Source: Bacteroides sp.
GTDB taxonomy: Bacteria; Bacillota; Clostridia; Lachnospirales; Lachnospiraceae
Direction: 5' to 3'
Assembly (NCBI GenBank): GCA_023666705.1
Contig: JAMPBO010000006.1
Coordinates: forward strand, 96,461-160,460
Length of the DNA: 64,000 bases
Shown here: positions 1 through 55,968 of the stretch, one piece after another
Numbering within the stretch: the first letter of the stretch is position 1
Layout of the letters: the number at the start of each line of letters is the position of its first letter
The notes under the pieces: model-generated
What the model was told of the DNA's origin: nothing
The model's database searches: none
What the model saw: only the letters and a program-made list of their open reading frames with translations
Program-made: the position numbers and the translations under genes

Positions 1-816
1 GAGACAGAACCGCAGGTTGAAGAAATAAAAGCAGAGGCAGCACCACAGCCGGAGAAAGCAAAAGCAGAAACTGTGCCACAGTCTGAAAGTGAAAAACCGA
101 CAAAGAAGGAAACAGATGTAGACCTCATTAAGAGCAGAATAAAAGAACTGGTAGGCGAAGTGCCTACGGCAAAGACAAAGAGTGAGGGAGATACAATAAA
201 AACGCTGGAGGAGTTGGATGAATTCTTAGACAGTAAGCCGCCGGTCGTTAAGAAAAATGTTGTAAAGGTCAACAGGGCTGCCTTGATACAGAGTGCCGCA
301 GAGCATGAAAGTGTTACGGAGGAATTAACCAGTGATGCACCAAAGCCTGAGAAAAAGGCAGATAAAAAATCCGCAAAGAAGGCGGAAAACGGACAGGTGC
401 CTGTGATTCAGGAGGTATATGAGGATGCGGCTGAAAAGACAGAAAAGCCAAAGAGCAACTCCGTACTCAGCAAATCCGTTGAGGATGCAAGTGTAAATAA
501 TATTTTGAATGCACCGAAGATTAATCCATATATCGTCAGGGTAAACACTGAGGAACGAATTATGATTACCAAGGCAACCTTTAAGATTGGTAAGGCTACG
601 AGGGGGGTAGACTATACCGTTAGCGGAAATGGTGCCGTAAGCCGTCAGCATGCGGCGATTATTCAGAAGGATGGTGTGTGTTATATCAAGGACAACAAAT
701 CAACGAATCATACATATGTAAATGGAAGATTGGTTGAGGAGGGGGCAGAAGAAATCCTTACACATGAATCGGTAATCAAGCTTGGCGATGAAGAATTTAT
801 CTTTAAGCTAAGATAA
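1..816 (+). CDS. FHA-domain protein, 5' end outside window
   Basis: The frame is open from base 1, so the start lies upstream; 271 residues are visible. About 170 residues form a Lys/Glu/Ala-rich, low-complexity and probably disordered region. The C-terminal ~95 residues are an FHA domain (phosphothreonine-peptide reader): a strand ending IGK, the SRQHA motif, and NKSTNHTYVNG, which matches the S-x-x-H and N/G positions of the fold. The usual phosphate-contacting Arg of the G-R motif is Lys here (IGK). No membrane segment is visible, so it is probably cytoplasmic. The domain is clearly paralogous to the FHA of the next gene 69 bp downstream (both end GDEEF-F-LR). Followed by PP2C and Ser/Thr kinase genes, it is probably a reader in that pathway. 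The upstream part of the protein is unknown. Confidence 0.85.
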   Translation, partial: ETEPQVEEIKAEAAPQPEKAKAETVPQSESEKPTKKETDVDLIKSRIKELVGEVPTAKTKSEGDTIKTLEELDEFLDSKPPVVKKNVVKVNRAALIQSAAEHESVTEELTSDAPKPEKKADKKSAKKAENGQVPVIQEVYEDAAEKTEKPKSNSVLSKSVEDASVNNILNAPKINPYIVRVNTEERIMITKATFKIGKATRGVDYTVSGNGAVSRQHAAIIQKDGVCYIKDNKSTNHTYVNGRLVEEGAEEILTHESVIKLGDEEFIFKLR

Positions 817-885: not shown

Positions 886-2376
886 ATGAAAAAAACTGAC
901 ATTGTAGTCACAAAACAAAATGATGTGGACGTCATTAAATATGACCTTAAGGCGTCGGATGTGTATGACGACAAAGCCGCAGATAAGGCGGCAAGCCTGC
1001 AAAACATTATTCCGTTCCAGTATAGCGATGAGGACGGAAAAAGAACGATTACTTCTTATGTGAGAGAGCAAACAACACTTGAGATGCTGTTCAAAAAAAC
1101 CTTGAATAAGAAACAGGTATTATCAATTATCAAAGGACTTGTGTCCGTGTATGAAATGGGAGCACAGGGAATACCTGTCAGTTATATCGTGAAGGAACCG
1201 TCATATGTGTACATTAATGAAAGTACATATGAGGTCAAGTGTATTCTGATTGCCATCAAACAGGATGTTTTGCCTTTGGCGGAAATTCCTGTATTCTTTC
1301 GGGAAGTTATTTCCAAAATGATATTTGACGAAAATGACAAGGACAATTATGTTGCAAAAATGTTGTCCATTATAAATGCTGCTGATTTCTCAATTGGAAA
1401 CCTGAAGGGCTATGTTGAGAAAGAAATTGAGGTGACGGGGAAGCCTGCCGTACAAAATCAGGTAAAAGTAAACAAGCTTGGCGTAATGAATAATATTCAA
1501 AACGCAAACAGGCAGGCACAAATGCAGGGGCAACCACCACAGGGAATGGGGGCACCGATGCAGCCGAACATGCCGAAGCCACAGGGGATGCCGCCAGTGC
1601 AGCCACCACAAGGGATGGGGGCACCAGTGACACCGAACATGCCGAAGCCACAGGGGATGCCGCCAGTGCAGCCACCACAAGGGATGGGGGCACCGATGCA
1701 GCCGAACATGCCGAAGCCACAGGGGATGCCGCCAGTGCAGCCACCACAAGGGATGGGGGCACCGATGCAGCCGAACATGCCGAAGCCACAGGGGATGCCG
1801 CCAGTGCAGCCACCACAAGGGATGGGGGCACCAGTGACACCGAACATGCCGAAGCCACAAGGGATGGGGGCACCAGTGACACCGAACATGCCGAAGCCAC
1901 AGGGGATGCCGCCAGTGCAGCCACCACAAGGGATGGGAGCACCAGTGACACCGAGCATGCCGAAGCCACAGGGGATGCCGCCAGTGCAGCCACCACAAGG
2001 GATGGGAGCACCGATGCAACCGACATCTGCCATGCCAAATGGAAGCTTTGTTGGACAGATGGGAAGCAAGCCGATACCACATATGGTGAGAAAGAAGACA
2101 GGCGAGACAATTAATATAACAAAATCCGAATTTTCTATAGGAAAATCCAAGACAAAGGCGGATTATTCCATTGAGGATAACCCTGCAATAAGCAGAGTGC
2201 ACTGTATTATTGTACAAAAAGAAGGGGTTAATTACATTAAAGATAATAACTCTACCAACCACACATATTTAAATGGTGTGGAGCTTGCTCCCGGGAAGGA
2301 ACACTTGCTTAAGAATAAGACATTGGTTCAGATGGGCGATGAGGAGTTTGTTTTTCTGTTAAGAAAGGGAGAATAG
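886..2376 (+). CDS. DUF6382-like and FHA domain protein with Pro/Gln/Met-rich repeat linker
   Basis: The 496-residue protein has three parts. Residues ~1-190 form a globular domain that resembles, from memory, the DUF6382 N-terminal domain of Lachnospiraceae FHA proteins. Residues ~215-385 are tandem 23-residue repeats of the type QPPQGMGAPMQPNMPKPQ. Residues ~395-494 are an FHA domain with IGK, AISRVHC and NSTNHTYLNG. AGAGGAGG lies 5 bases before the ATG. There is no signal peptide or membrane segment, so it should be cytoplasmic, with the linker acting as a long flexible spacer between two binding modules. It is followed after one base by a PP2C gene, so the two are probably translationally coupled. 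As in the upstream FHA, Lys replaces the usual phosphate-binding Arg. The role as scaffold or reader is inferred. Confidence 0.85.
   Translation: MKKTDIVVTKQNDVDVIKYDLKASDVYDDKAADKAASLQNIIPFQYSDEDGKRTITSYVREQTTLEMLFKKTLNKKQVLSIIKGLVSVYEMGAQGIPVSYIVKEPSYVYINESTYEVKCILIAIKQDVLPLAEIPVFFREVISKMIFDENDKDNYVAKMLSIINAADFSIGNLKGYVEKEIEVTGKPAVQNQVKVNKLGVMNNIQNANRQAQMQGQPPQGMGAPMQPNMPKPQGMPPVQPPQGMGAPVTPNMPKPQGMPPVQPPQGMGAPMQPNMPKPQGMPPVQPPQGMGAPMQPNMPKPQGMPPVQPPQGMGAPVTPNMPKPQGMGAPVTPNMPKPQGMPPVQPPQGMGAPVTPSMPKPQGMPPVQPPQGMGAPMQPTSAMPNGSFVGQMGSKPIPHMVRKKTGETINITKSEFSIGKSKTKADYSIEDNPAISRVHCIIVQKEGVNYIKDNNSTNHTYLNGVELAPGKEHLLKNKTLVQMGDEEFVFLLRKGE
1531..2019 (+). repeat. 69-bp in-frame tandem repeats (Pro-rich linker)
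   Basis: Units begin at 1531, 1600, 1669, 1738, 1807, 1918 and 1987, each opening with the codons for QPPQGMGAP. The period is exactly 69 bp (23 residues) except for the fifth unit, which is 111 bp because a 42-bp stretch encoding PKPQGMGAPVTPNM is duplicated inside it. Two variants alternate (MQPN and VTPN). Near-identity at the DNA level points to recent expansion and probable length variation between strains. Long open frames on the opposite strand here result from the repeat composition. Confidence 0.95.
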
Positions 2377-2377
2377 G

Positions 2378-3148
2378 ATGAATTATATTGCGGCATTCCA
2401 TACGGATGTTGGGATAACAAAAAAAACAAATCAGGATTCCCTTGCAATCAAAATTGTAGAGACTGATAAAGGACCTGTTGCATTTGCCATTGTTTGTGAC
2501 GGTATGGGAGGGCTGGAAAAAGGAGAGCTTGCCAGCAAGGAGGTCACGCTTGCATTTTGTGAGTGGTTTGAAAATACGCTTATTGATGACATACAGGATG
2601 GAAGCTTTGCGGAAGAAAAGCTGATTAATCAATGGAATGAATTGATTCAGGAGCAAAACAAAAGGCTCGGCAAATATGGGGAAGATAATCATTTGCAGAT
2701 AGGAACGACCATATCAGCGATTTTGATGGTCAGCAATGAATATTACATTGTGCATGTGGGGGACAGCCGTGTATATCAGTTCACGAAAAGTGTGAATCAG
2801 CTCACTCACGACCAGACATTTGTGGCAAGGGAAATTGCAGCGGGAAGAATGACGCCGAGGCAGGCGAAAATTGACCCGAGAAGAAGTGTGCTTCTTCAAT
2901 GCGTGGGTGCATCGTCGGTGGTGGAGCCTGAATTTGCAAAGGGAAATGTAGAGAAAAATGCCGTATATATGATATGCTCGGACGGCTTCCGGCATCAGAT
3001 ATCCGAGGATGAAATGATGGAGAAAATAGGACCCGCAGGAAGCACGGATGAGGAAAAAATGAAGTTTGGCTGTATGTATCTCACGGAGCTTGTCAAGAGC
3101 AGAAATGAGGCAGACAACATAACGGTTGCATTAATCAGGACAATATAA
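2378..3148 (+). CDS. PP2C-family Ser/Thr phosphatase
   Basis: 256 residues forming one PP2C (PPM) catalytic domain that removes phosphate from Ser/Thr using two metal ions. Visible motifs are TNQDS near the N-terminus, CDGMGG (metal-binding Asp and Gly), GDSRVY, CSDGF and the C-terminal EADNITV, all in the usual order. No membrane segment is seen, so it is cytoplasmic. The ATG follows the upstream stop by one base, with AGAAAGGGAG a few bases before it, so it is likely coupled to the FHA gene. The kinase gene starts 30 bp after its stop. It most likely reverses phosphorylation by that kinase, as in PrkC/PrpC pairs; this pairing is inferred from position. Confidence 0.93.
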   Translation: MNYIAAFHTDVGITKKTNQDSLAIKIVETDKGPVAFAIVCDGMGGLEKGELASKEVTLAFCEWFENTLIDDIQDGSFAEEKLINQWNELIQEQNKRLGKYGEDNHLQIGTTISAILMVSNEYYIVHVGDSRVYQFTKSVNQLTHDQTFVAREIAAGRMTPRQAKIDPRRSVLLQCVGASSVVEPEFAKGNVEKNAVYMICSDGFRHQISEDEMMEKIGPAGSTDEEKMKFGCMYLTELVKSRNEADNITVALIRTI

Positions 3149-3178
3149 TACCGTTTGAAAATTGGGAAGGAAATGGAC

Positions 3179-5335
3179 ATGACGAAGGAAGGTACTGTAT
3201 TAGACGGAAAATATGAAATATGGAAAGAAGTCGGACGTGGCGGAATGTCCATCGTTTATCTTGCCAGAGATAACCGTCTTAACAAACAGTGGGCGGTCAA
3301 GGAGATAAAAAATGACGGTTCCAAGTCTACGCAGACGCTTTTAAAGGGCTTGGAGCGTGAGGCAAATATTCTTAAAAATGTGGACCACCCTGTACTTCCG
3401 AGAATCGTGGATATCATCAACCAGGACGGCACAATCTATGTCGTAATGGATTTTATAGAAGGAACCACTATAAGTGACCGGTTAAAAAAAGAGGGGGCAC
3501 AGCCGCAGGAAACGGTTATCGAATGGGGACTCCAGCTTGCAAGTGCACTGGATTATCTTCACAATATGAATCCGCCTGTTATATACAGAGATATGAAGCC
3601 CTCCAATGTTATGATTAAGCCAGAGGGCGGTGTAAAGCTGATAGACTTTGGAACGGCAAAGGAATATATTGTTGAAAATAATGCGGATACGACGGCACTT
3701 GGAACACGTGGCTATGCAGCACCGGAACAGTTTGGTGACAAACAGGGACGAGGCATATACAACACGGATGCAAGAACGGATATCTACAATTTGGGAGCAA
3801 CCCTGTACCATATCGTAACAGGCATGAATCCGTGTGAGCCGCCATACGAAATCAGACCAATACGGGAATGGAATCCTGCCCTTTCATCAGGTCTGGAAAA
3901 GATAATATTAAAATGTACACAAGCGGATCCAAATGACAGATACCAGAATTGTAAGGAGCTTATGTATGCGTTAGAGCATTACAATGAGTTAGATGATGCA
4001 TACAGGAAAAAGAATAAAAAGAAGCTGGGGCTGTTTATCACTACATCGGTTCTTACGGTGGCTGCCGCAATCACATCTGCAGTGGGCTACAGTGGTCTCC
4101 AGAGAATAAAAATGGATAATTACAACAGCTACATTGAAACAGGAAACGATTACAGAATTGAAGAAAGATATGCTGAGGCAGCAGAACAGTATAAAAAGGC
4201 ATTTGAGCTGGACGGAACGGATGCGGAGGCATACAACAAATATATTCAGACGTACATAGATGCTTCTAATGTTGTAAATGAAGAAAATATACCTGCACTT
4301 GATTTGGAAAACGGGCTTAATGTTGTTTCCAACAGGGTAAAGTCAGGCTACGATAATGTAGATAAAAACGCTGCTGTTTTATATAAGCTGGCAATCACCT
4401 ATTTTGACGAGCTTGGAGATTATAAGACGGCGACAAAATATTTTGACATGATAAATTCCAATGACAGTGAATATGGTGAACTTGCAGGGTATTATGGCTC
4501 CGTGTCCCTGATACTTTCCAGTACGGACCCGGATAAGCAGGAGCTGATTGAGCAGGTGAACAGCTTTGCGGTGTACAATCAGAGTGAATATACAAACCAG
4601 AATGTTGACAAGTTCATCAATTACAAGACAATCGGCAGGATTTATGCTACCTATATTACATACGAGGGTGTAGCAGGGCAGGCGGAGCAGGTTATGAATC
4701 AGGCTGTGTCGGATTTGGAGGAATATACGGGAAGTGACATAGATGTCAATGATTACTTCTATGCATATTACGACAATTTAACGGTTATATACGAAACTTT
4801 GGCTAAAAATGCTGAGGATGAGGCTGAGCAGGCACAATATTACAATGATGTCATTACCTATTGCGAGGAATACATGAATGTAAACGACATTAAGGTGGAA
4901 AATTCGGGTCAGGTCGGAATAGGCGGAACAAATGACAATGTATATAACACCGCCTATTATAATAAAATTTCCAAAATCGCTGCATGCTACAATCTGCTGG
5001 GGAAATATGATGAGGCGGTTGAAACATACAAAAAAGCAGAGGAACGACTTGGAACGGATAATGTTATGAGCAATAAAATATATGCAGAGCACCTTGATTA
5101 CATATATTCCTATTGCGAGGCGAGACAGCAAAATCCAACTTTATGGGCACGGGAGCTTCCGGACGAGTTGGCGGAGCTTTTAAGTGTTTACAAAAGTGGA
5201 GCAGGCGTGTCGGATATCGAGTCAAACAAGACGTGGAAAAAGAGAAAAGAGAATATGGAAATGCTGTCAGAAAACCGGTACGGCACAGAGGCGGACGATG
5301 AGGAAGCAACGACAGAAAGTGAAGCTGCGGAGTAG
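3179..5335 (+). CDS. Membrane Ser/Thr protein kinase with C-terminal TPR-like region
   Basis: 718 residues from the ATG at 3179, chosen because GGAAGG (3165-3170) sits 8 bases upstream; the frame is open to a TTG at 3155. The kinase domain spans residues ~8-270: glycine loop GRGGMSIVY, Lys41 in AVKE, catalytic YRDMKPSN (Asp138; Tyr replaces His of HRD), DFG at 156-158, and the activation segment GTRGYAAPEQ. Key residues for activity are present. A KKNKKK stretch precedes one membrane helix at ~283-304. The remaining ~410 residues are helical with TPR-like periodicity (for example YAEAAEQYKKAFELD) and should lie outside the membrane. No PASTA domains are seen, unlike PrkC. It sits between the PP2C gene and the TSVL-repeat membrane protein. 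Confidence 0.93.
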   Translation: MTKEGTVLDGKYEIWKEVGRGGMSIVYLARDNRLNKQWAVKEIKNDGSKSTQTLLKGLEREANILKNVDHPVLPRIVDIINQDGTIYVVMDFIEGTTISDRLKKEGAQPQETVIEWGLQLASALDYLHNMNPPVIYRDMKPSNVMIKPEGGVKLIDFGTAKEYIVENNADTTALGTRGYAAPEQFGDKQGRGIYNTDARTDIYNLGATLYHIVTGMNPCEPPYEIRPIREWNPALSSGLEKIILKCTQADPNDRYQNCKELMYALEHYNELDDAYRKKNKKKLGLFITTSVLTVAAAITSAVGYSGLQRIKMDNYNSYIETGNDYRIEERYAEAAEQYKKAFELDGTDAEAYNKYIQTYIDASNVVNEENIPALDLENGLNVVSNRVKSGYDNVDKNAAVLYKLAITYFDELGDYKTATKYFDMINSNDSEYGELAGYYGSVSLILSSTDPDKQELIEQVNSFAVYNQSEYTNQNVDKFINYKTIGRIYATYITYEGVAGQAEQVMNQAVSDLEEYTGSDIDVNDYFYAYYDNLTVIYETLAKNAEDEAEQAQYYNDVITYCEEYMNVNDIKVENSGQVGIGGTNDNVYNTAYYNKISKIAACYNLLGKYDEAVETYKKAEERLGTDNVMSNKIYAEHLDYIYSYCEARQQNPTLWARELPDELAELLSVYKSGAGVSDIESNKTWKKRKENMEMLSENRYGTEADDEEATTESEAAE

Positions 5336-5346
5336 ATTGGAGAGTG

Positions 5347-6234
5347 ATGAAAATGGCAGACATTTACAATATATGTTTCTACGGCGGACTTGTGTTAGCT
5401 TCATTACTCCTTGTAACTTCCATCGTGCTGTTTATCGTATTGAAGATACCAAGTGTGATTGGCGAGCTTACGGGAAGTACCGCCAGGAAAAGCATGGAAG
5501 AAATGAAGACAAGCAACAAGGGCTCTAGTGCAGTGTCGAAGAAGGAACAGGGTAAATATTACAATCAGGCATCAGGAAAGATAAAAGTAAGACAGGCGAT
5601 GTCGGCGGAAGCAATTAAGAAAAATAATGACAATACAACGATGATACTTGGAGACGGTGTTGCAGATGATACTGTAACAGCAGAACCGAAGCCAACTGCC
5701 AAAAAGACGGAGCCTGTGCCAAAAAAAGATACGGATATTGATGAGAAGGCAACAGATGTCTTAAGGGACGATGAGGCAACCGACGTTTTGAGGGATGACG
5801 ACGAAGCGGAGACAAGCGTGCTTAGTGAGGAGGAAGAAACAAGCGTCCTTACGGATAACGATGAAGCGGAGACAAGCGTGCTTCATGCGGAGGAAGAAAC
5901 AAGCGTCCTTACGGATAACGATGAGGCGGAGACAAGCGTGCTTCATGCGGAGGAAGAAACAAGTGTCCTTACGGATAACGAGGAAGCGGAGACAAGCGTG
6001 CTTCATGCGGAGGAAGAAACAAACGTCCTTACGGATGACGATGGGGCGGAGACAAGTGTGCTTCATGCGGAGGAAGAAACAAGTGTCCTTACGGAGTACG
6101 ACGAACCAGAAACAAGCGTGCTTGGCAGGGATTCTTCCACAACGGTACTCACCAGCATGGCAAACACCGGGCTGTCATCTAAGGTTAAGGTTACATATAA
6201 TATAGTAGTAGTCCATACGGATGAGCAATTATAA
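5347..6234 (+). CDS. Single-pass membrane protein with cytoplasmic TSVL repeat tail
   Basis: 295 residues if translated from the ATG at 5347 (GGAG at 5339-5342; the ATG at 5353 is also possible). One membrane helix at residues ~8-32 is followed by a basic segment (TARK), so by the positive-inside rule the long tail is cytoplasmic. The tail is Lys-rich, then highly acidic with about a dozen T-x-V-L motifs in 20-residue repeats (AETSVLHAEEETSVL). Each is a Thr in an acidic context with Leu at +3, compatible with kinase substrate and FHA pT-x-x-L/I/V ligand sites. Its gene lies between the kinase and the giant Ig-like protein. I do not recognise a named family. The phosphorylated-tail role is inference; the repeats and topology are direct readings. 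Confidence 0.85.
   Translation: MKMADIYNICFYGGLVLASLLLVTSIVLFIVLKIPSVIGELTGSTARKSMEEMKTSNKGSSAVSKKEQGKYYNQASGKIKVRQAMSAEAIKKNNDNTTMILGDGVADDTVTAEPKPTAKKTEPVPKKDTDIDEKATDVLRDDEATDVLRDDDEAETSVLSEEEETSVLTDNDEAETSVLHAEEETSVLTDNDEAETSVLHAEEETSVLTDNEEAETSVLHAEEETNVLTDDDGAETSVLHAEEETSVLTEYDEPETSVLGRDSSTTVLTSMANTGLSSKVKVTYNIVVVHTDEQL
5806..6153 (+). repeat. 60-bp tandem repeats encoding AETSVL/EETSVL
   Basis: Units start at 5806, 5866, 5926, 5986, 6046 and 6106 with an exact 60-bp period; the last is divergent and ends in STTVLT. Each unit holds two T-S/N-V-L motifs. Two TDVL motifs precede the array at about 5753-5793. The Thr and the V-L pair are kept while the spacer varies (TDNDE, TDNEE, TDDDG, TEYDE), which suggests selection on the motif. 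Confidence 0.95.
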
Positions 6235-9200: not shown

Positions 9201-11368
9201 ACCTGTATGATAAAATCAACCCATATACGGATGATTTGACCATAGACGGCAGCGATACATTCACTGCTCCGATTGCAACAAAAAATCCTGAGATTGCAGT
9301 GAGGGTAGGTGATACCCTTACGCTTGAAACGGTCAATATAAGTGTAAGGGGACCGAAGAAAACTACGGCTAAAAGCTTTGATTTTAAGTATAATGCGGCA
9401 GGTACATCAGGCATTGAGAGAAGCTTTAAGAAAAAGCTGAGTGATATTATTGGAAATAACATTCCGGATGGCAGATATACGGTTGTTGTATCCGTGAAGG
9501 ATAAGGCGGGAAATACATCCGAAAATGAAAGAATTTCATTTGACATAGACAGGACGAAGCCGGTTGTGACCGTAAAGGCGGCGTCGGGAACGGCAAGCAA
9601 AAAGACGAAAAATCCGTATTATTATAATACGGATGTAGGCATTGAACTTACCTATACCGAGGTAAATTTGGATAAGGTTACCGTAACGGACAACGGAACA
9701 CCTGTGCAAAATCTTGACTGGAAGGCTGTAACGGGCACTGACGGAAAATACAGGGCAAGGCTTACGGTGGGCACAGAGGGAATACATAAGCTGGCTATCG
9801 TGGCGGTCGACAAAACGGGAAATACATCGTCAACGAAGCAGATAACCTTTGTTGTGGATAAGACTGTCCCTGACATAACCGCAGCGGTAAACGGCACGAC
9901 TTACACGGACAGCATGGGACAGCTTATGCTTACAGGTACGGCTGCAGTTGCAATGACCGTAAGGGATGCGAACATTGACACGGCGGACAATTATGTCCAG
10001 GTTATAAAAAAGATTCCTGACAAGGAGGAGCTGACGACAAAGTATGCTAAGACGTCAAACCTCAATATGTCCTTCGATGAGGAGGCAGAATATACCGTAA
10101 ACTTCTATGCAGTTGATATGGCAAACAATAAGAGCACTGCCCGGACAGTGGGCTTCCGTGTAGATAAGGAAGCACCAAATCTCAGCATATCAGGAGCAGT
10201 GGGAAGCGGTACATCATCAAGTGCTGCAGTTGTTACATTTACCATGCGGGAAGCGTTCTGGTGGGATGCAGGCGGAACTGTCAGTATATATCGCAAAGCT
10301 GGTGATGCTAATGCCGAGGAGCTTTACAAGACAATTGAACTAAAGCCTGCGGCATATGAGACATCGGTGTCTGAAACCTTGACGGAGACAGGCGTGTACA
10401 GGTTTGAGGTTGAAGCCTCTGACAGGGTAGGTCATACGGCAAATGTAAGTCAGACCTTTACCATTGACAGGGATGCACCTGTCATCACCTTAAACGGCGT
10501 CAATGATTATGACAAGACAAGTACAAATGTAGAGTTTACCGCACAGATTACGGATGAATTTTACACTTCAAAGAAGGTTACAATAACAGGTACAAGAACG
10601 GACGAGACGGGAAAGGTGAATGACATCAGCTTTTCAGGCTACAGCCAAGGTGCAAATCCGACTGTAATAAGTGAGAACTTTACGGATGACGGTATCTATG
10701 ATGTGACGATAGTATCATCCGATGCAGCAGGAAATGAGCAGAGAAGTCAGGTGCATTTTACCATTGATAAGAGTGCCCCTGTAATCGGCGATTTGTCTTC
10801 CTATGATGGCAAGGTGCTTACGGGCTTTAGCTGGGACATAGATTTGGATGACATTGTTTCCGACCTTACCGTATGTGATGTTCATATGTATTTGAACGGA
10901 AGCGAGTATGACGGTGTATCTGAGATAGAGGACGGCTCATATGTGCTTCGTGTCGTGGCTACGGATGAGCTGGGACACACGACGGAAAAAGAGGTAAGCT
11001 TTGAGCTTGATACCAAGGCACCTGTATTCATCGTGACAGGTGTTGAAAAGGATGAGGTTAAGGATGAGCCTTATACAATCGAGGTATCACTTCAGCTTAG
11101 CGAGGATATGCTCAGCGAGGTTATATTAAACGGAAAGCAAATGAACATCAGCGAAAATGTATGTCGGTTTGATGTGACGGAAAAGGGCGATTATACCCTT
11201 GAGCTTAAGGCGGTAGATCATGCAGGCAATGAGGCAGCAGATACCATAGCGTTCAGATATGGACAGGAAAAAACCATGTGGTGGCTGTGGATAATTCTAT
11301 TACTGGCAATCATTCTTTTGACGGTTATAATTATCATCATTGCAAAGAGACGTAAGGATAATAGATAA
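6248..11368 (+). CDS. Giant membrane-anchored Ig-like repeat surface protein
   Basis: 1706 residues from the GTG at 6248, chosen because GGGGGG (6235-6240) lies 7 bases upstream; an in-frame ATG at 6221 lies inside the previous gene. A signal peptide is visible (KR, then AFALAVLMMMTPFFAHA). The body is a chain of bacterial Ig-like domains marked by recurring DKTxPxI and DKAGN motifs about every 90-110 residues. The C-terminus is one helix (WWLWIILLLAIILLTVIIIII) and KRRKDNR, so it is held by a stop-transfer helix and not by an LPXTG sortase signal. It should project from the cell as a long stalk. It lies in the kinase/phosphatase operon, so it may be the surface structure that the operon senses or controls. 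Ligand unknown. Confidence 0.88.
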   Translation: MKRLFFYKNNKMRILAFALAVLMMMTPFFAHAGLKKDSQAADSNEEATIEDLDVDLDAETEVENLQINPIWKVCDADGNLMDVDEGQFYKEAVVSTSDGDSTSVNNGILVYGYKDKDGEFQALGDSKTISTSGEYTPAIAYYTKDAEGQPVEKIKLWVGEKTIKIDADAPQVDTYVLNEIDKGDMAGKPDKDGNIGTIYVNPKGTDKKFKLQIWGSDGAGSGLKKITFDGTELTSDNSTFLTGEIQPSADAIHTIILEDNVGNQRSVTFTLIEDATNPVISNDKAATLDADGREQSIIDTVSKATSVTISAEVTEDNIKDVILSLETDEGTTEYKWSEGNLVNDNNQYSFEITNIETGDYAFWFKAEDKAGNKAESNKKNFYIINTPPTLSNFELQYKGKNGRWQKANFNEAENKYVLNPVGNLEYRLYVTAAAGVKTHGNTVTVKLESSEFTKLNNTDNYILNLENYTTDNLKGLSGKTIQAEDKFGNEGTTAIPEITVANTDVTVITNKFGWDGEVKTDLNDIPAYINSRHEFTVYVQSFYDIDAENTVLTNGTDTISCKPIEKARITYDEATGIIETPVTFVIGDMSVSTLFKDYKLKVCDTRGNSNENFALKEILLDLERPYLKETEVTDQDGTVITDFSRWYQSATLAYTVSGGDNLDATLKSPLEAVAYVISNAGTSNGTNQVDVTEGVTEISGELTVPESDASAGTVITFAAEDKAGNSIQTANRSNVVTVKVDQTEPEIAGVKVNETVISKADGTPDECTIVPVRRQTPIEVTVRDNLAIESIRISLKDPQGNAVTLGNSFRQFSADEALKQGNTVLQETLKAGLDVSGLAEGKYTLTVKVVDKAGNEKEISGYEFIINTKTPVILDKATGKAPVSDKSWHNEASFKKTFAVSLSSAEGRLKTITYTIEDSRGNIREKNIISNGMICNEQGNPTFRPASGTMEFDVDIPEAARASGTKLTIHVVDMGENEATSTVNYLYDKINPYTDDLTIDGSDTFTAPIATKNPEIAVRVGDTLTLETVNISVRGPKKTTAKSFDFKYNAAGTSGIERSFKKKLSDIIGNNIPDGRYTVVVSVKDKAGNTSENERISFDIDRTKPVVTVKAASGTASKKTKNPYYYNTDVGIELTYTEVNLDKVTVTDNGTPVQNLDWKAVTGTDGKYRARLTVGTEGIHKLAIVAVDKTGNTSSTKQITFVVDKTVPDITAAVNGTTYTDSMGQLMLTGTAAVAMTVRDANIDTADNYVQVIKKIPDKEELTTKYAKTSNLNMSFDEEAEYTVNFYAVDMANNKSTARTVGFRVDKEAPNLSISGAVGSGTSSSAAVVTFTMREAFWWDAGGTVSIYRKAGDANAEELYKTIELKPAAYETSVSETLTETGVYRFEVEASDRVGHTANVSQTFTIDRDAPVITLNGVNDYDKTSTNVEFTAQITDEFYTSKKVTITGTRTDETGKVNDISFSGYSQGANPTVISENFTDDGIYDVTIVSSDAAGNEQRSQVHFTIDKSAPVIGDLSSYDGKVLTGFSWDIDLDDIVSDLTVCDVHMYLNGSEYDGVSEIEDGSYVLRVVATDELGHTTEKEVSFELDTKAPVFIVTGVEKDEVKDEPYTIEVSLQLSEDMLSEVILNGKQMNISENVCRFDVTEKGDYTLELKAVDHAGNEAADTIAFRYGQEKTMWWLWIILLLAIILLTVIIIIIAKRRKDNR

Positions 11369-11381
11369 AGCAGGAGTAAAT

Positions 11382-12125
11382 ATGGTAGAACAGGCACTTC
11401 TTACGAATCCCGGCGGACGGGAAAATAATGAAGATTATGTGATAATGGCTGAATACGGGGAAGAACGATGCTTTGTGCTCTGCGATGGTCTGGGGGGACA
11501 TGAGTGTGGAGAGGTGGCATCTTCTTCCGTTGCAGAATTTGTTGCCGGACTGTTCCGTAAGTCCGGCGATTACCCTGCATTTATTGACGATGCATTTTTG
11601 CTGTCCCAGGCAATGCTGCTTGACCTCCAAAAGCAAAAGGGCATGCAGGATGCCATGAAAACAACCATGGTTGTTCTTGTTGTCACTGCGGAACAGATTA
11701 AGTGGGGGCATATTGGAGACAGCCGGCTTTACCATATCTATCATAATGGAATGAGCTACGAGCGGACGAAGGATCACAGCTTAGTGCAGCTTCTCGCAGA
11801 TATGGGAGAAATAACAGAGGATGAAATGAGAAATCATGCGGATAGAAATAAGCTGTTGCGGGTGATGGGAAGTGAGTGGGGAAGCAAGTCCTACGATAAA
11901 AGCGGAGTGCTGGAGCGGGACGGCTCTAGTCATGCATTTGCACTTATGACGGATGGCTTTTGGGAATATGTCCATGAAAGTGAAATGATGCAGCTTCAAA
12001 ATCAGTCGGCTACCTGTGAGGAATGGCTCCAAAAGATGGAGCGGCTTGTTCTGGAACGTGCGGATATGTCAAAAACGGACAATTATTCCGCTATATGCGT
12101 AAGAGTAAATGATGTTCAATCTTGA
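11382..12125 (+). CDS. Second PP2C-family phosphatase
   Basis: 247 residues from the ATG at 11382, preceded by GGAG (11372-11375); the frame stays open upstream into the end of the Ig-like gene. PP2C motifs in order are ENNEDY, CDGLGG, GHIGDSRLYH, MTDGF and KTDNYSAICV, so the metal-binding residues look intact. It is soluble and cytoplasmic. It is only moderately like the PP2C at 2378, so it is not a recent duplicate. Two phosphatases in one operon suggest different targets, for example kinase and tail. The start lies 13 bp after the Ig-like protein stop. Confidence 0.92.
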   Translation: MVEQALLTNPGGRENNEDYVIMAEYGEERCFVLCDGLGGHECGEVASSSVAEFVAGLFRKSGDYPAFIDDAFLLSQAMLLDLQKQKGMQDAMKTTMVVLVVTAEQIKWGHIGDSRLYHIYHNGMSYERTKDHSLVQLLADMGEITEDEMRNHADRNKLLRVMGSEWGSKSYDKSGVLERDGSSHAFALMTDGFWEYVHESEMMQLQNQSATCEEWLQKMERLVLERADMSKTDNYSAICVRVNDVQS

Positions 12126-26702: not shown

Positions 26703-26869
26703 TATTAAGTTCATTCTGATATAACAAGGATACATATATTACAGAGGTGGCAGCAAGTGAAAAATGGGTCATCTGATGGTGCATAGGGATGAGCAAAGGT
26801 GTGCCGTAACAGGGTCTGAAAAAGCATAGCTTTGCCCATGAATGCCGAAATAAAAAAGGAGGAGTGGAA

Positions 26870-29800
26870 ATGAAACAATGGAAACGCAGATTGGCTGTTT
26901 TGGTTGCTTTGGTTTTAATGGTAAGTGCAATGCCTTTAAATGCACAGGCGGCTGCCAAAAAGGGAACGGTTAAAACCGTTACCATTACAAACCCAAGTAC
27001 AAAAACGTTGGTACTGAAAAAGGGACAAAAATTTAAGCTGAAGACAAAAGTAGTGACCACGGGTAAGGCAAGTAAGAAGGTAACATTCTGGTCTTCAAAC
27101 AAAAGTATCGTAAAGGTAAGCAGTAAAGGAACCGTTAAGGCTTTAAAAAAAGGAAAAGCATGGATTACGGTAAGAAGTGTTGCCAATAAAAAGAAAAAGG
27201 CATCCATTAAGGTTATTGTGGGTTCGCCTGTCACAAAGGTAAAGCTTAATAAGACGAGCTTAAAGTTGACGGAGGGGAAAACCACAACGTTGAAAGCAAC
27301 CTTATCACCCAAAAAGCCATCTGTTAAGAAGGTAAGCTTTACCTCAAGCAATTCAAAGGTTGCGAAGGTAAACAGCAAAGGTAAGGTGACTGCGGTGAAA
27401 GCAGGAAAAGCAAACATCACTGTAAAGGCAATGGACGGAAGTGGAAAAAAGGCTGTCTGCAAGGTGACGGTTGTTAAGAAGAAGCCAACGACGGAGAAGC
27501 CAACGACAGAGAAGCCAACGACGGAGAAGCCAACGACAGAGAAGCCAACGACAGAGAAGCCAACGACGGAGGAACCAACGACGGAGGAACCGGGCTTATC
27601 CTATGATGGTTATGAATTGAAGTGGCAGGATGATTTTGAAAGCGGTGCATTAAACAGGGATGACTGGAATGTGGAGCTCCATGAGCCTGGTTGGGTCAAT
27701 CAGGAGTGGCAGGAGTATGTTGATAGCGAAGAAAATGTTTATATTGAGGACGGCAACCTTGTATTAAAGCCTGTGCAGAAAATAGTGGATGGCGAGACGG
27801 TTTACACCTCAGGACGTGTCAACACACAGGGCAAGCATGATTTTACATATGGATTATTCGAGGTTCGTGCAAAGGTTCCTACAGGTACGGGATATTTACC
27901 TGCCTTTTGGATGATGCCGACAGATGAAAATCTGTATGGTCAATGGCCACGGTGTGGTGAAATTGATATCATGGAGGTTATGGGACAGGAAAATGATAAG
28001 GTATACGGCACAATTCATTATGGAGAGCCGCATGCTGAAAGTCAGGGCACAAAGAAGCTGGCACAAGGGAATTTTTCAGACGAATATCATACATTTAGCT
28101 GCGAGTGGCAGCCTGGCAGTATAAAATGGTATGTGGACGGTGTATTATATCATGAGGAAAATGATTGGTTTTCTGCAACAGAGGGACAGGGAACTGTGTC
28201 ATACCCTGCACCGTTTGATCAGCCGTTTTACATGATTTTGAACCTTGCAGTCGGCGGAAGCTGGGTCGGCTATCCGGATGAAGATACAGATTTTGAAAAT
28301 CAGAAATTTGTTATTGATTATGTAAGGGCATATCAGAAGACGGAGGGCTATGATGACACTAATGTAACAAAGCCTGAGAAGCCGCCTGTAACATTGAGAG
28401 AGCCTGATGCAAACGGAAATTATGTAAATAACAGTGATTTTTTGACTGTAGAGGACTTGACGGACGAAACAGACTGGCAGTTTATGACAGCACTTGGCGG
28501 GGAAGCAACTGCTGCTATTGTACAGAATAGTCAAATGGGTTCTGCAATCAAGATAGAAACTACTGATAAGGGTACAGTAGATTACAGCGTACAGCTCGTG
28601 CAGCATAAGGTGCCTTTAAAGCAAGGGGCAAAATATAAGCTTATATTTAATGCTTACGCAGAGGAAGCAAGAACCATGTATGCGGGCATTGGTACAATTG
28701 GTGACAGAAGCTGGAAGAAATATGTTAACAGTGAAATTAATTTGACAACTGAAAAGCAGACCTACATATGCGAATTTAATATGAGTGATGAGGATTATGA
28801 AAATGCCCGTATTGAGTTTAATATGGGTAATATAGAACCGCAATCAACTATTTATATCAGTAATGTTAAGCTGGAGCAGATGGGCGAATTTGAAATTGAT
28901 GACAGTAAAACAGTCAGGGCTGACGGCAATTATGTATACAACGGAAGCTTCCAGGAGGGCACAAACCGAATGGAATACTGGGAGATTACAGATGCAGGAA
29001 CGAAAGCAGATGTCAGTGTAACAGGCATAAATGATGGACGCAGATTGAAGGTGATATCTTCAGGCTGTGATAATGCAAATGAGGTTTTATTAAAGCAAAC
29101 AGAGCTTCCTATTACATCAGGAAAATATGAGCTTAGCTTTGAGGCGGAGCTTGCAGAGCCTGCTGTCGGTGATACGGTGGAGCTTGCAGTTTGTGTAGCA
29201 GGCGGCAGGGAAACATTTACGCTTAATAAGGATGAAAAGAAGTTGTATACATATAAGTTCGAAATCGCAGATGATGTTGTGATTACGGATATTGATGATA
29301 TTGTATTCGAGTTTGGAGTAAATGGTACCGTATTGATGGATAATATCAGGCTTGTGGAGGATACACTGATTAAAAACGGTAGCTTTAACGCAGGAACTTC
29401 AGGATATGATATATATGTAGAGAACAGTGCTTCTGCAAGTTATGTCGTGGACAGTCAAAGTGAGGATAATGCACTTGATTTAACGATAAAAAAGAGTGGA
29501 GACGCAGAGTGGAAGATTCAGGTGAAGCAAAATAATGTTAAGCTGGAAAAGGATAAATGCTATGAATTAAAGTTTGATATTAAGAGTTCCTTGGCACGTC
29601 CTATCCAGTATGCAATTCAAAGAGATGGATCCATGCATAAGACGGAAAGTGGGGCGGAAGATTGGACGCCATATGTACAAGAGACAATTCCTTTGACGGA
29701 ATATGGTTCTAATGGAGCATATACCACAGTTTCAAAGAAATTTAAAATGACATTTGATACTGACGAGGGTTCTATCTTTAACATTGCTTTAGGTGGCAAT

Positions 29801-30874
29801 AACCTTACAACACAGCACAGGATATGTATTGACAATATTTCCTTAACTGAAATCGATGAATCTGAGATGCCATTCATACCTGCAATTGAGGCAGGTGTGG
29901 AAATGTTAGATAACATTGATTTTTCGAATGATGGAGACGGCTGGGAGAAAGCGATTACTTCACCGGGTGCTGCCAATGTAACATTTGCAGATGGCAAAGC
30001 AGTGTATGCAATTACAAATGTCGGTGATGAGGATTGGAATGTACAGTTAAAGCAGTCAGGAATTACACTTGAAAAAGGCAGTGAATACAAGGCTGCCTTT
30101 AAGGTTAAGTCCGATGTGGCACGTACCATAAAGCTTGCGTTTCTCGATGCATCCTACAATTGGTATGGTGGTGCTGACATTACTTTGACGGCAAATGAAG
30201 AAAAGCTTGTAGAGTGTACATTTGTGGTAAGTCAGGATACCAGTGATGAAATTACAATGGTTGTATCCATGGGACAGATATATAATGGGGAAGGCACTGA
30301 CAGGGAACTGGTTAATACCCCTGTATCTACCATTACAATGTCAGATTTTTCATTAAAAAAGCTTGAGACGCAAGAAGTAGCTGACGGTGAAAACATACTC
30401 AAAAATGCCGATTTTTCTGATGCGGATGACAGCATGGCAGGCTGGACGGAAACGATAGCAAATTGGGACGGTCTTACTGCAAGTGCGGTAAGGAGCATTG
30501 CAGAAGGTGTAATCACATATGCCATTGAAAATGTGGGAACGGAGGATTGGCATATACAGTTGAAGCAGAGTGGACTTTCTCTGGAAGAAGGTGGTAAATA
30601 CAAGGTGGCATTTACAATTTCTTCAACAAAGGCAAGGTCTGTAAAGTCAGGCGTAATGTCAACAGAATACACATGGTATGGTGGAAACACGGTTGCTCTG
30701 GCTGCAAATCAGACAAAACAGGTGGAGTACGAATTTACAATGGACGCAAATGACAGTACGGCAGACTTTTTCATCTCAATGGGTCAGCTTGCTGATGATG
30801 AGGGCAATGCAATTGATACGCCTGCATCCACCATTAAAATTTCCAATATTTCAATAACTAAAGTTGTTGAATAA
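26870..30874 (+). CDS. Secreted GH16 beta-glucanase with Big2 domains and five CBM4/9-like modules
   Basis: 1334 residues from the ATG at 26870 (AGGAGG 7 bases upstream). Order: signal peptide (KRR, then VLVALVLMVSAMPLNAQA); two lysine-rich Big_2 domains (~30-205); a TTEKP linker; GH16 catalytic domain (~243-498) with the signature GEIDIMEVMG, where Glu364 and Glu369 are nucleophile and acid/base; then five CBM4/9-like modules marked by openings such as NGSF, NADF or NIDF and WxxQLKQ. GH16 enzymes with this EIDIxE form usually cut beta-1,3-glucan (laminarin) or mixed-linkage glucan. No membrane anchor or LPXTG is present, so it is released or held by wall binding. Linkage specificity is inferred. 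Confidence 0.92.
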   Translation: MKQWKRRLAVLVALVLMVSAMPLNAQAAAKKGTVKTVTITNPSTKTLVLKKGQKFKLKTKVVTTGKASKKVTFWSSNKSIVKVSSKGTVKALKKGKAWITVRSVANKKKKASIKVIVGSPVTKVKLNKTSLKLTEGKTTTLKATLSPKKPSVKKVSFTSSNSKVAKVNSKGKVTAVKAGKANITVKAMDGSGKKAVCKVTVVKKKPTTEKPTTEKPTTEKPTTEKPTTEKPTTEEPTTEEPGLSYDGYELKWQDDFESGALNRDDWNVELHEPGWVNQEWQEYVDSEENVYIEDGNLVLKPVQKIVDGETVYTSGRVNTQGKHDFTYGLFEVRAKVPTGTGYLPAFWMMPTDENLYGQWPRCGEIDIMEVMGQENDKVYGTIHYGEPHAESQGTKKLAQGNFSDEYHTFSCEWQPGSIKWYVDGVLYHEENDWFSATEGQGTVSYPAPFDQPFYMILNLAVGGSWVGYPDEDTDFENQKFVIDYVRAYQKTEGYDDTNVTKPEKPPVTLREPDANGNYVNNSDFLTVEDLTDETDWQFMTALGGEATAAIVQNSQMGSAIKIETTDKGTVDYSVQLVQHKVPLKQGAKYKLIFNAYAEEARTMYAGIGTIGDRSWKKYVNSEINLTTEKQTYICEFNMSDEDYENARIEFNMGNIEPQSTIYISNVKLEQMGEFEIDDSKTVRADGNYVYNGSFQEGTNRMEYWEITDAGTKADVSVTGINDGRRLKVISSGCDNANEVLLKQTELPITSGKYELSFEAELAEPAVGDTVELAVCVAGGRETFTLNKDEKKLYTYKFEIADDVVITDIDDIVFEFGVNGTVLMDNIRLVEDTLIKNGSFNAGTSGYDIYVENSASASYVVDSQSEDNALDLTIKKSGDAEWKIQVKQNNVKLEKDKCYELKFDIKSSLARPIQYAIQRDGSMHKTESGAEDWTPYVQETIPLTEYGSNGAYTTVSKKFKMTFDTDEGSIFNIALGGNNLTTQHRICIDNISLTEIDESEMPFIPAIEAGVEMLDNIDFSNDGDGWEKAITSPGAANVTFADGKAVYAITNVGDEDWNVQLKQSGITLEKGSEYKAAFKVKSDVARTIKLAFLDASYNWYGGADITLTANEEKLVECTFVVSQDTSDEITMVVSMGQIYNGEGTDRELVNTPVSTITMSDFSLKKLETQEVADGENILKNADFSDADDSMAGWTETIANWDGLTASAVRSIAEGVITYAIENVGTEDWHIQLKQSGLSLEEGGKYKVAFTISSTKARSVKSGVMSTEYTWYGGNTVALAANQTKQVEYEFTMDANDSTADFFISMGQLADDEGNAIDTPASTIKISNISITKVVE
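27485..27589 (+). repeat. 15-bp repeats encoding PTTEK linker
   Basis: Seven in-frame copies of a 15-bp unit (CCAACGACGGAGAAG and variants) start at 27485 and repeat every 15 bp, encoding PTTEK/PTTEE. Such Thr-Pro linkers join wall or substrate-binding domains to a catalytic domain and may be glycosylated. Confidence 0.93.
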
Positions 30875-53556: not shown

Positions 53557-55968
53557 ATGCAAACAAGGTACGACAGATGTCCGAATTGCATGCAGGCAAT
53601 TCAGGAAAATGAGGATACATGTTCATACTGCGGGTTTGATATAAATGGATACGAGGAACGGTCCAATTGTCTCAAGCCGTTTACTGTTTTAGAAAATAAA
53701 TATATGCTTGGACGTGTAATAGGTGTCGGCGGCTTTGGCATAACATATATAGGATGGGATTTAAATCTCCAGACATATATTGCGATTAAGGAATATTTCC
53801 CTGACAGTATTGCAGGGCGTGATGCATCAAGGTCTGAGGAGGTTATACCAAACGAGGGAAGCAGGGAAATATATGACAAGGGCTTGAAGCGTTATGTTGA
53901 GGAAGCCCAAAATATTTCCAGGTTCTACCAGCTTCAGGGTATTGTTTCCGTAAAGGATTTCTTCTATGCAAACGGAACGGCTTACATCGTAATGGAATAC
54001 ATAAATGGAATTAACCTTAAGGAGTATCTGAAAAATTGTGGTGGAAGACTGGACGAGGCAACGGTGCTTGCACTGATGAAGCCAGTATTTGAATCAATGT
54101 ATCAGATACACAATTCGGGGCTCGTCCACAGGGATATCAGTCCTGATAACATAATGGTTGATACCGAGGGAAAGATAAAGCTTATCGATTTTGGTTCGGC
54201 GAGAGGACAGTCGGCGGAGAGCGATAAGACCTACACGGTAATTTTAAAGCATGGTTATGCACCGTCGGAGCAGTATTATGCAAAAGGAAATCAGGGACCA
54301 TGGACGGATATATACAGTCTTTGTGCGACCATGTACAAAATGCTTACAGGTATGGTGCCTCCAAACAGTGTGGAGAGAATGGAGCAGGATATGTACCAGT
54401 CTCCGTCCTCCATGGGCATTCCGGTTTCACAACGCACGGCAAGCGTACTGGCAAAGGGGCTTGCAGTTAAAATAAATGACAGATATCAAAATATCGGGCA
54501 GCTTCTCACGGACCTTTACGGGGAGGCACCGGTTGTACAGGCAGGCAGCAGCATTCCGATAGCTTCGGCAGCCGCACAGGCAAACAGCATGTCATTGTCA
54601 AAGCAGTCCATGCATATCAGCGGACCTGTGGGGGCAAGCACGAAGGGAAAGGACAACCGGAAAACAGGTTACATTGTCATTAGTGCACTGGCTGCAGTTG
54701 TTCTTGTGGCTGTGCTTGCAATCGTGTTAGGCGGCGGTGGAGATAAAAAGAAGAAGGAAACGACAGAGTCTCAGCCTGTGGCATCATCAGGAGACAGCGG
54801 TACCGGTGAAAAAACGGATGATACCACAGAGACGACAACGGAGAAAGATACAGAAGGAAGCACGGAGGAAGGCGGCTATGTATACCAAAGTCCGAAAGAG
54901 CTTTCAGATAACTGGAGAGATTATCAGTTTCGGGTGAACGATACCATGTACCAGCTTCCTGTACCATATGCCGACTGGATTGCGGCAGGCTGGAAAGCTG
55001 ACCGTATACCGACTACCTTGGCAGCAGGTGCAGATGATACGGTACAATTTCATATGGACGGCGTGCAGCTATATGCTACGATTGCCAATTTTGGATTATC
55101 CGAGCTGGACATCAGCGACTGCTTTATCATCGGAATCAGAATTGAAATAGAGGATATCAGCGAGAATATGGAGTTTGAGCTTCCGGCAGGAATTATGCTG
55201 GGCAAGGCAAGCGAAGCAGATATAAAAGTAAGCTATGGGGCACCCGAATATAGATTCGAGGATGAGGACGACGGAGCGGTCCGCCTTGATTATGCAGGAG
55301 ATTCATGGGACGATGGAATGGATTTGAAGGTTGATGCAGATGGGAAGCTCAGTTCAATCCGCATGGCAAATATTGCCGTACCGGAGGGATTAGAGAGTGA
55401 GCCGTCACAGATTAGCACGGATGCACCGGGCATCAATGATTTGTATAAGGCACCGGAAGGTCCGTCTACAGACCGGTTTGATGCAATTATTACCTTGGAT
55501 GGGGTAAATTACCAGCTTCCTGTACCTGCGTCAGTGCTTGCAGAAAACGGATGGATTCTGGATACGGCAACGGAGGAATACCTTTTAGGTGAGGATATGA
55601 CGACAACCTATATGGAGAAGAATGGTAGCAGAATAGAGGTTAAGCTTTACAACTATACGCAAAATGCAATACTTCCGATAAATGCATATGTGGTTCAGAT
55701 TGGAGTTGAGGCGGGTTATATAGACCTCGATGTTGTTTTTCCGGGAGGGCTTAAGCTCGGAGGTGACGCATCGGAGTTTGGGAAGCTGTATGGTGATTTG
55801 GGTGATGATTATTTTGTAAGTGAATATTCGACAGCAACCTATGAGCATGCGTATTATTACTATAACACGAAAACCTTTGAATATGTTTTAATGTCCATAC
55901 GGTCAAATCCTGAAACGGGAAAGATTGAGTCGATAGATTGCGAGAATAAACCAAACAGCGTAAATTAA
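53557..55968 (+). CDS. Ser/Thr kinase with N-terminal zinc ribbon and duplicated outer domain
   Basis: 803 residues. Cys8, 11, 22 and 25 form a zinc ribbon (CPNC and CSYC). The kinase domain (~45-330) has GVGGFGITY, Lys78 in AIKEY, HRDISPDN (Asp193) and DFG (211-213), so it should be active. A membrane helix (~370-392, GYIVISALAAVVLVAVLAIV) and a Thr/Glu-rich spacer follow. The outer part has two related ~150-residue modules, each beginning with a Y/F-V/I-N/D pattern and QLPVP (VNDTMYQLPVP and LDGVNYQLPVP), so the domain was duplicated. Its partner phosphatase is not adjacent. It is unlike the kinase at 3179, which has no zinc ribbon. Confidence 0.92.
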   Translation: MQTRYDRCPNCMQAIQENEDTCSYCGFDINGYEERSNCLKPFTVLENKYMLGRVIGVGGFGITYIGWDLNLQTYIAIKEYFPDSIAGRDASRSEEVIPNEGSREIYDKGLKRYVEEAQNISRFYQLQGIVSVKDFFYANGTAYIVMEYINGINLKEYLKNCGGRLDEATVLALMKPVFESMYQIHNSGLVHRDISPDNIMVDTEGKIKLIDFGSARGQSAESDKTYTVILKHGYAPSEQYYAKGNQGPWTDIYSLCATMYKMLTGMVPPNSVERMEQDMYQSPSSMGIPVSQRTASVLAKGLAVKINDRYQNIGQLLTDLYGEAPVVQAGSSIPIASAAAQANSMSLSKQSMHISGPVGASTKGKDNRKTGYIVISALAAVVLVAVLAIVLGGGGDKKKKETTESQPVASSGDSGTGEKTDDTTETTTEKDTEGSTEEGGYVYQSPKELSDNWRDYQFRVNDTMYQLPVPYADWIAAGWKADRIPTTLAAGADDTVQFHMDGVQLYATIANFGLSELDISDCFIIGIRIEIEDISENMEFELPAGIMLGKASEADIKVSYGAPEYRFEDEDDGAVRLDYAGDSWDDGMDLKVDADGKLSSIRMANIAVPEGLESEPSQISTDAPGINDLYKAPEGPSTDRFDAIITLDGVNYQLPVPASVLAENGWILDTATEEYLLGEDMTTTYMEKNGSRIEVKLYNYTQNAILPINAYVVQIGVEAGYIDLDVVFPGGLKLGGDASEFGKLYGDLGDDYFVSEYSTATYEHAYYYYNTKTFEYVLMSIRSNPETGKIESIDCENKPNSVN

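Follow-up and report, generated by a model that had tools for sequence, protein, structure and literature searches.

What is the function of a membrane protein whose tail repeats one short threonine motif again and again? The question is raised by gene K of the stretch of DNA analysed here (64,000 nucleotides, hereafter the window), which lies among genes for FHA proteins (J1 and J2), a PP2C-type phosphatase (F), a Ser/Thr kinase (D) and an Ig-like surface protein (I). A preliminary description of the window, made from its letters alone, took the repeated motifs for a multivalent FHA ligand. Judging from the sequences compared here, the conserved and Thr-strict array is very likely an FHA ligand. 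We also consider it probable that K forms a membrane-tethered ladder of FHA-binding sites, on which phosphothreonine (pThr) would be written by the kinase, erased by the phosphatase and read by J.

The motif array of K

For the open reading frame (ORF) of K, Pfam gave no match at E 1e-3, and comparison with orthologues makes the ATG at 5353 its most likely start. It contains 15 T-x-[VI]-L sites (TSVL 10, TDVL 2, and TNVL, TTVL and TMIL 1 each), of which the 14 TxVL sites form the array and the TMIL site stands apart (Table 1). Where the preliminary description had a dozen TSVL motifs, the array itself stands, although the count becomes 10 exact TSVL or 14 TxVL. Its 60-bp repeat was recovered by Tandem Repeats Finder (TRF) at 5793-6123 (5.5 copies, 90% matches). 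When the five 60-bp units are aligned, the motif codons for Thr, Val and Leu prove constant, as had been described; however, several codons of the spacers, which were said to drift, are constant too. Taken alone, five such young copies prove little about selection on the motif.

The tail is of low complexity and, as first noted, very acidic, with 49 D/E and 4 K/R among 140 residues (131-270). In 33 orthologues the median number of K+R is 0 ahead of the hydrophobic segment and 11 in the 43 residues behind it. Because positive charge follows the N-terminal hydrophobic segment, the tail is expected to be cytoplasmic, in agreement with the earlier use of the positive-inside rule. The conserved C-terminal tail of K, which by a loose pattern is of the YNVVVVHTDEKI type in 61 of the 85 complete non-redundant homologues, is left unexplained by the FHA model.

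Conservation of the motif in relatives

Relatives were compared in a genus set, a family set and a set of loci from named genomes, which overlap in part; class and family are used as kinship labels, and the names Clostridia and Lachnospiraceae are deduced from the named genomes among the relatives. In the genus set, the kinase search matched 37 of 37 genomes, some of the matches being distant kinases. A near full-length kinase orthologue is present in 34 of the 37, and in all 34 the next ORF encodes the array protein, which in some cases is cut by a contig end. Together, these 34 orthologues contain 256 TxVL and no SxVL, compared with means of 7.4 and 2.2 in composition-preserving shuffles of the tails, and none of them has fewer than three TxVL. 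The preliminary description had named random loss of Thr among orthologues as speaking against an FHA ligand. No such loss was found: Thr occupies the motif position in 296 of the 299 x-x-[VI]-L windows with enough flank. At the same time spacers, lengths and repeat units vary among the species (ATDVLRDD, ETEVLGAT, PTDVLTQGGVGDD, ETTVLGGSKGE and others). A functionless expansion of a plain low-complexity repeat would agree with the young 60-bp tandem repeat and its 90% matches; we reject such drift, and give it almost no credence, because the 34 orthologues keep T-x-[VI]-L despite their different spacers, lengths and repeat units.

For the family set, 250 genomes of the larger group were screened; the array protein was found in 42, 28 of these proteins were read, and 29 loci were taken with wider flanks. 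The three sets gave 131 homologues. Of these, 43 were dropped for being at least 70% alike and one because its middle part was too short, leaving 87 that are less than 70% alike. Thr occupies 499 of their 529 x-x-[VIL]-L windows, Ser 8 and other residues 22; the same stretches outside the motif contain 960 Thr and 1234 Ser. The number of motif copies per homologue ranges from 0 to 15, with a median spacing of 14 residues. Among 476 12-mer motif contexts 435 are distinct; note that tandem copies are not independent events, so that a p-value for Thr and Ser inside versus outside the motif should not be taken for a probability.

The same motif ahead of FHA domains

FHA domains have an acute specificity for pThr (PMC11884936) and are selective at position pThr+3 (PMC5549992; here and below, cited papers are represented by excerpts). 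Genes for the putative writer, eraser and reader accompany K in most of its relatives. A kinase gene lies directly 5' of K in all loci (34/34 genus, 29/29 family and 69/69 named-genome), and upstream of K there is a PP2C gene in 34/34, 27/29 and 69/69 loci and an FHA gene in 34/34, 18/29 and 67/69 loci, respectively.

The loci that hold an array gene contain 148 FHA domains scoring above 60 bits with a custom profile. The bulk of them, with exceptions, come from DUF6382-type proteins; contig ends truncate many of these proteins and so hide their type. The 148 domains reduce to 56 non-redundant FHA proteins, 27 of which carry the motif within 40 residues N-terminal of the FHA domain, often as GETTVL and in one or two copies. 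The 40 residues ahead of the 56 domains hold 44 motifs with Thr, none with Ser and 7 with other residues. In a class-wide screen, 96 of 291 genomes were DUF6382-positive, and the best 30 loci, including 10 from the window's own family, were read. An FHA core was readable in 26 of the 30, with the motif upstream in 21 (17 of 18 in other families, 4 of 8 in the own family). In 20 of these 21 the motif lies 29-33 residues from the Gly-Arg/Lys, and one Ser motif was seen. In four loci without the motif in K where J is in view (L110, L177, L117 and L210, the first two probably from one organism), the motif is in J. K has fewer copies where J has the motif (mean 3.4 versus 7.4, Mann-Whitney p 7.6e-6), a trend that ignores phylogeny and counts loci with two J twice. 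Because the same motif thus precedes the FHA domain in FHA proteins of related loci, the FHA reader of the preliminary description gains independent support; as a whole, that earlier interpretation is borne out in part.

Alternatively, the motif may be the consensus of a kinase substrate and nothing else, the tail of K being a multisite phosphate sink or timer that has no FHA reader. The acidic residues ahead of Thr and the hydrophobic ones behind it would suit a kinase consensus, and the kinase gene adjoins K in all examined loci. We nevertheless regard this explanation as unlikely, in view of the motif found at a near-fixed distance before the FHA domains of another protein. Moreover, all 11 family genomes that lack a neighbouring FHA gene have a frame with DUF6382 and FHA elsewhere in the genome, so that no array genome without FHA was found among these 11; the two named-genome loci of this kind were outside the check.

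Points against a reading by J, and possible other readers

Several observations weigh against the proposal that J reads K through pThr. An FHA gene just upstream is absent in 11 of the 29 family loci and 2 of the 69 named-genome loci. A T-x-[VIL]-L motif near the FHA domain is absent from J1 and J2 of the window. Six of the 87 homologues have no motif at all, and the copy-number trend between J and K ignores phylogeny. Literature searches on these proteins turned up no data on phosphosites, binding or localisation. Broader searches gave nothing recognised as a T-x-V-L array motif, and the main text of a C. difficile phosphoproteome paper contains neither "FHA" nor "forkhead". The two remaining points, the phosphate pocket and the other FHA proteins of the genome, are treated in the following paragraphs.

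The FHA fold is present in J1 and J2, and in both of them Lys, not the usual phosphate-binding Arg, follows Ile-Gly. The preliminary description had raised this as a caveat; the observation holds, although its weight is reduced, as this subfamily normally has Lys. The residue is found in 16/16 J1 and 33/34 J2 sequences of the genus, in which the recognition-loop residues S43, R44, H46 and N65 (Ser-Arg-x-His and Asn) are invariant. Among 81 non-redundant FHA domains, 55 are of the type K..SRxH, 2 K..SKxH and 1 K..SNxH, and the others are R..GKxH (11), R..SRxH (4), R..GRxH (4), S..SRxH (2) or unread (2). The pocket residues thus pair up, Lys with Ser-Arg (55 of the 58 Lys cases) and Arg mostly with Gly-Lys. 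That the FHA domains are dead is thought unlikely, because Lys is normal for the subfamily and accompanies Ser-Arg.

The array may be an FHA ligand that is read by an FHA protein other than J1 and J2, such as a TseC-type ATPase where one is present. The window's own genome has five FHA matches. They include a third DUF6382-FHA protein (contig C31), whose FHA domain has the usual IGR and is not preceded by a T-x-[VIL]-L motif, and an ABC transporter (contig C5) that has two FHA domains at its N-terminus, is Rv1747-like in layout and has a 5' neighbour resembling ftsZ by eye. Either of these two could be an alternative reader, and the ATPases of the T7SSe class of type VII secretion systems (T7SS) keep pThr residues (PMC11217815). 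On the other hand, J1 and J2 adjoin K on the same strand. No EssC was found in the window's genome, and in 25 of the 32 family array genomes searched none lies closer than 15 kb to the array gene. We judge a reader other than J1 and J2 to be unlikely.

A further possibility is that the motif fills the FHA groove without phosphate and acts as a constitutive tether. In the class-wide set, 17 J keep the motif although their phosphate-binding Ser is replaced by Gly; therefore, the contact between motif and FHA domain may need no phosphate there. In DgcB the FHA domain binds its own N-terminal tail, and the unphosphorylated tail was seen in the groove (PMC6733907). However, the preference for Thr over Ser is near-absolute (499 versus 8), a kinase with catalytic motifs and a phosphatase adjoin K, and J1 and J2 keep Ser-Arg-x-His and Asn. 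Such a tether is thus a distinctly improbable explanation of the array.

Proposed mechanism

In the reading that we prefer, the transmembrane kinase D, encoded just 5' of K, would phosphorylate K at the Thr of each [E/A]-T-x-V-L motif. The FHA domains of J1 and J2 would then dock on the pThr sites, gripping the Leu at pThr+3, and the PP2C phosphatase would remove the phosphate marks. We infer these steps of writing, reading and erasing from the motif, the neighbouring genes and the conserved residues. The many sites of K could collect many J under the membrane, near the kinase and the Ig-like protein; this clustering is deduced from the valency and from the precedent of Rv1747 (PMC9312465). 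J would contribute a DUF6382 domain that is kinase-like and may be a pseudokinase. GarA-like recruitment in cis, with the motif on J, and recruitment in trans on K may be two settings of one switch. The output may be an envelope signal, to judge from the Ig-like partner and from the kinase's outer part.

Gene neighbourhood and relation to type VII secretion

The features of the locus are collected in Table 1. The DUF6382 match of J1 exceeds its cut-off and lies in the part upstream of the window. By eye, kinase D has one transmembrane segment, and AVKE, YRDMKPSN, DFG and APEQ are all present; protein I has, also by eye, a C-terminal membrane helix.

Table 1. Positions of the genes, domains and motifs of the K locus in the window
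Feature	Position	Strand	Basis
J1, DUF6382-FHA protein, 650 aa, 5' end upstream of window	1..816	+	Pfam FHA E 1.9e-14
J1 FHA domain	about 583-786	+	pocket residues IGK..SRxH..STNHT
J2, DUF6382-like domain, Pro/Met/Gln repeat linker, FHA	886..2376	+	Pfam FHA 1.8e-14
J2 DUF6382-like domain	886-1455	+	E 2.7e-4, 21.1 bits; below curated cut-off 26.7
J2 FHA domain	about 2134-2337	+	Pfam FHA; models of both J2 domains
F, PP2C-type phosphatase, presumed eraser	2378..3148	+	PP2C_2 E 2.1e-13
D, Ser/Thr kinase, presumed writer, TPR-like outer part	3155..5335	+	Pkinase E 1.2e-45, TPR matches
K, array protein	ORF 5344-6234, likely 5353..6234	+	start from orthologue alignment
K membrane helix, N-terminal, single, predicted	about 5386-5442	+	hydropathy, charge counts
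TMIL motif, apart from array	5638..5649	+	
Array of 14 TxVL motifs	5752..6150	+	motif reading, 60-bp tandem repeat
TxVL Thr codons, first seven	5752, 5779, 5812, 5839, 5872, 5899, 5932	+	
TxVL Thr codons, last seven	5959, 5992, 6019, 6052, 6079, 6112, 6139	+	
K C-terminal tail, conserved (KVKVTYNIVVVHTDEQL)	6181..6231	+	similar end in homologues
I, Ig-like surface protein, 1715 aa	6221..11368	+	Big_13 E 1.7e-31, others
Second PP2C-type phosphatase	11340..12125	+	PP2C_2 E 1.3e-10

This arrangement has a kinship that the preliminary description overlooked. As described by Garrett and co-workers, T7SSe and T7SSj clusters comprise a kinase D, a phosphatase F, an Ig-like protein I, a DUF6382-FHA protein J and a protein H/K that has a single helix and an unstructured cytoplasmic part (PMC11217815). 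The window matches this set in its transmembrane Ser/Thr kinase, PPM phosphatase, DUF6382-FHA proteins and Ig-like transmembrane protein, and its kinase has a TPR-like outer part, as described for TsjD of T7SSj. K resembles TseK/TsjK or TseH, matched by description only, in its single helix and unstructured cytoplasmic stretch; for those proteins the excerpts of that paper report neither a motif nor a function, whereas K of the window has 14 copies. In the literature found, K belongs to a component type without a published function.

The T7SSe and T7SSj clusters have a secretion core, whereas the window's genome, with an estimated completeness of 100%, has no EssC or WXG100 match. The best EssC score (TIGR03928) is 107 bits, against a cut-off of 778, at a frame of 876 aa of the FtsK type; one FtsK match exceeds its cut-off. 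WXG100 (PF06013) gave no match at E 1e-3, a search that a very divergent member could escape. As neither EssC nor WXG100 is matched, a working type VII secretion locus is rejected for this genome, and by these searches its module is an orphan without the T7SSe/j secretion core.

Among relatives the linkage is mixed. In the genus, EssC exceeds the cut-off in 14 of 37 genomes and is on the array contig in none; linkage is possible in four of the EssC-bearing genomes (G023, G018, G016 and G005), because their array contigs are just 4-9 kb long. Of the 42 array genomes of the family, 32 were searched for EssC, and 17 of these have it above the cut-off. Six of the 17 (G262, G184, G245, G259, G189 and G223) have EssC and the array gene on one contig, 9.6-14.5 kb apart, and G189 has a second, weaker array match (unread) 1 kb from another EssC. 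G131 has a sub-cut-off EssC piece at a contig end, about 8 kb from the array gene. WXG100 and LXG genes accompany one of the EssC-linked array loci, and in Butyrivibrio fibrisolvens 16/4 (L209) K has eight T-x-[VIL]-L, with EssC pieces downstream. The window's genome, for its part, offers a kinase-FHA-phosphatase module apart from the secretion core of the published clusters.

From these comparisons we put forward, tentatively and at slightly less than even confidence, a wider proposal. Clusters of the T7SSe/j type may hold a phospho-scaffold that is undescribed in the literature found here, a membrane-anchored pThr ladder of 0-15 rungs that, over evolution, would alternate with a motif carried in cis by the FHA-pseudokinase partner. 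The ladder would set the number of partners that gather, and several Lachnospiraceae lineages may have retained it as an envelope signalling module of its own, after or before any link to the secretion ATPase. If K is such a ladder, a T7SS-variant component described in the literature found just as a single-helix protein would have a testable job. The natural series of 0-15 near-identical docking sites could also be used to measure FHA valency versus membrane clustering.

Comparison with known FHA systems

The array extends known FHA scaffolds, and the principle itself is not new. The longer form of the ETTS motif is ETTSVF. In GarA/OdhI the ETTS phospho-motif is N-terminal to the FHA domain (PMC12321487), and a similar Thr-hydrophobic motif is found in J of the relatives. 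Here, however, a separate membrane protein bears the motif too, in many copies, and J has an additional kinase-like domain and no known metabolic enzyme target. The TQXF repeats of MDC1, read by the FHA domains of RNF8 and Pellino, likewise put several pThr-x-x-hydrophobic copies on one scaffold (PMC11884936); MDC1 belongs to the DNA-damage proteins of the human nucleus and has four copies, with ATM as the kinase, and the likeness is one of analogy, not of sequence comparison. Rv1747 of M. tuberculosis combines FHA domains, a disordered linker, the kinase PknF, the phosphatase PstP and membrane clusters (PMC9312465), but its FHA domains and linker are in one ABC transporter, with no dedicated separate array. 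In the PpkA-Fha-PppA system of the type VI secretion system (T6SS), a transmembrane kinase, a phosphatase and an FHA protein govern a membrane machine (PMC3953482, PMC12607579); there the pThr is on Fha or TssL (Thr14), and the excerpts of these papers mention no motif ladder.

Other observations

The linker of J2 is a long tandem repeat at 1530-2012 with a 69-bp unit, PPQGMGAPxxPNMPKPQGMPPVQ. Elsewhere in the window, another Ser/Thr kinase is encoded at 53557-55968, and a DUF6709 protein at 61228-62196 has near its end DDDEKTVLISG, a single acidic Thr-hydrophobic motif. At 26864-30874 a protein of 1336 aa with GH16 and CBM domains contains a linker of (TTEKP)n repeats.
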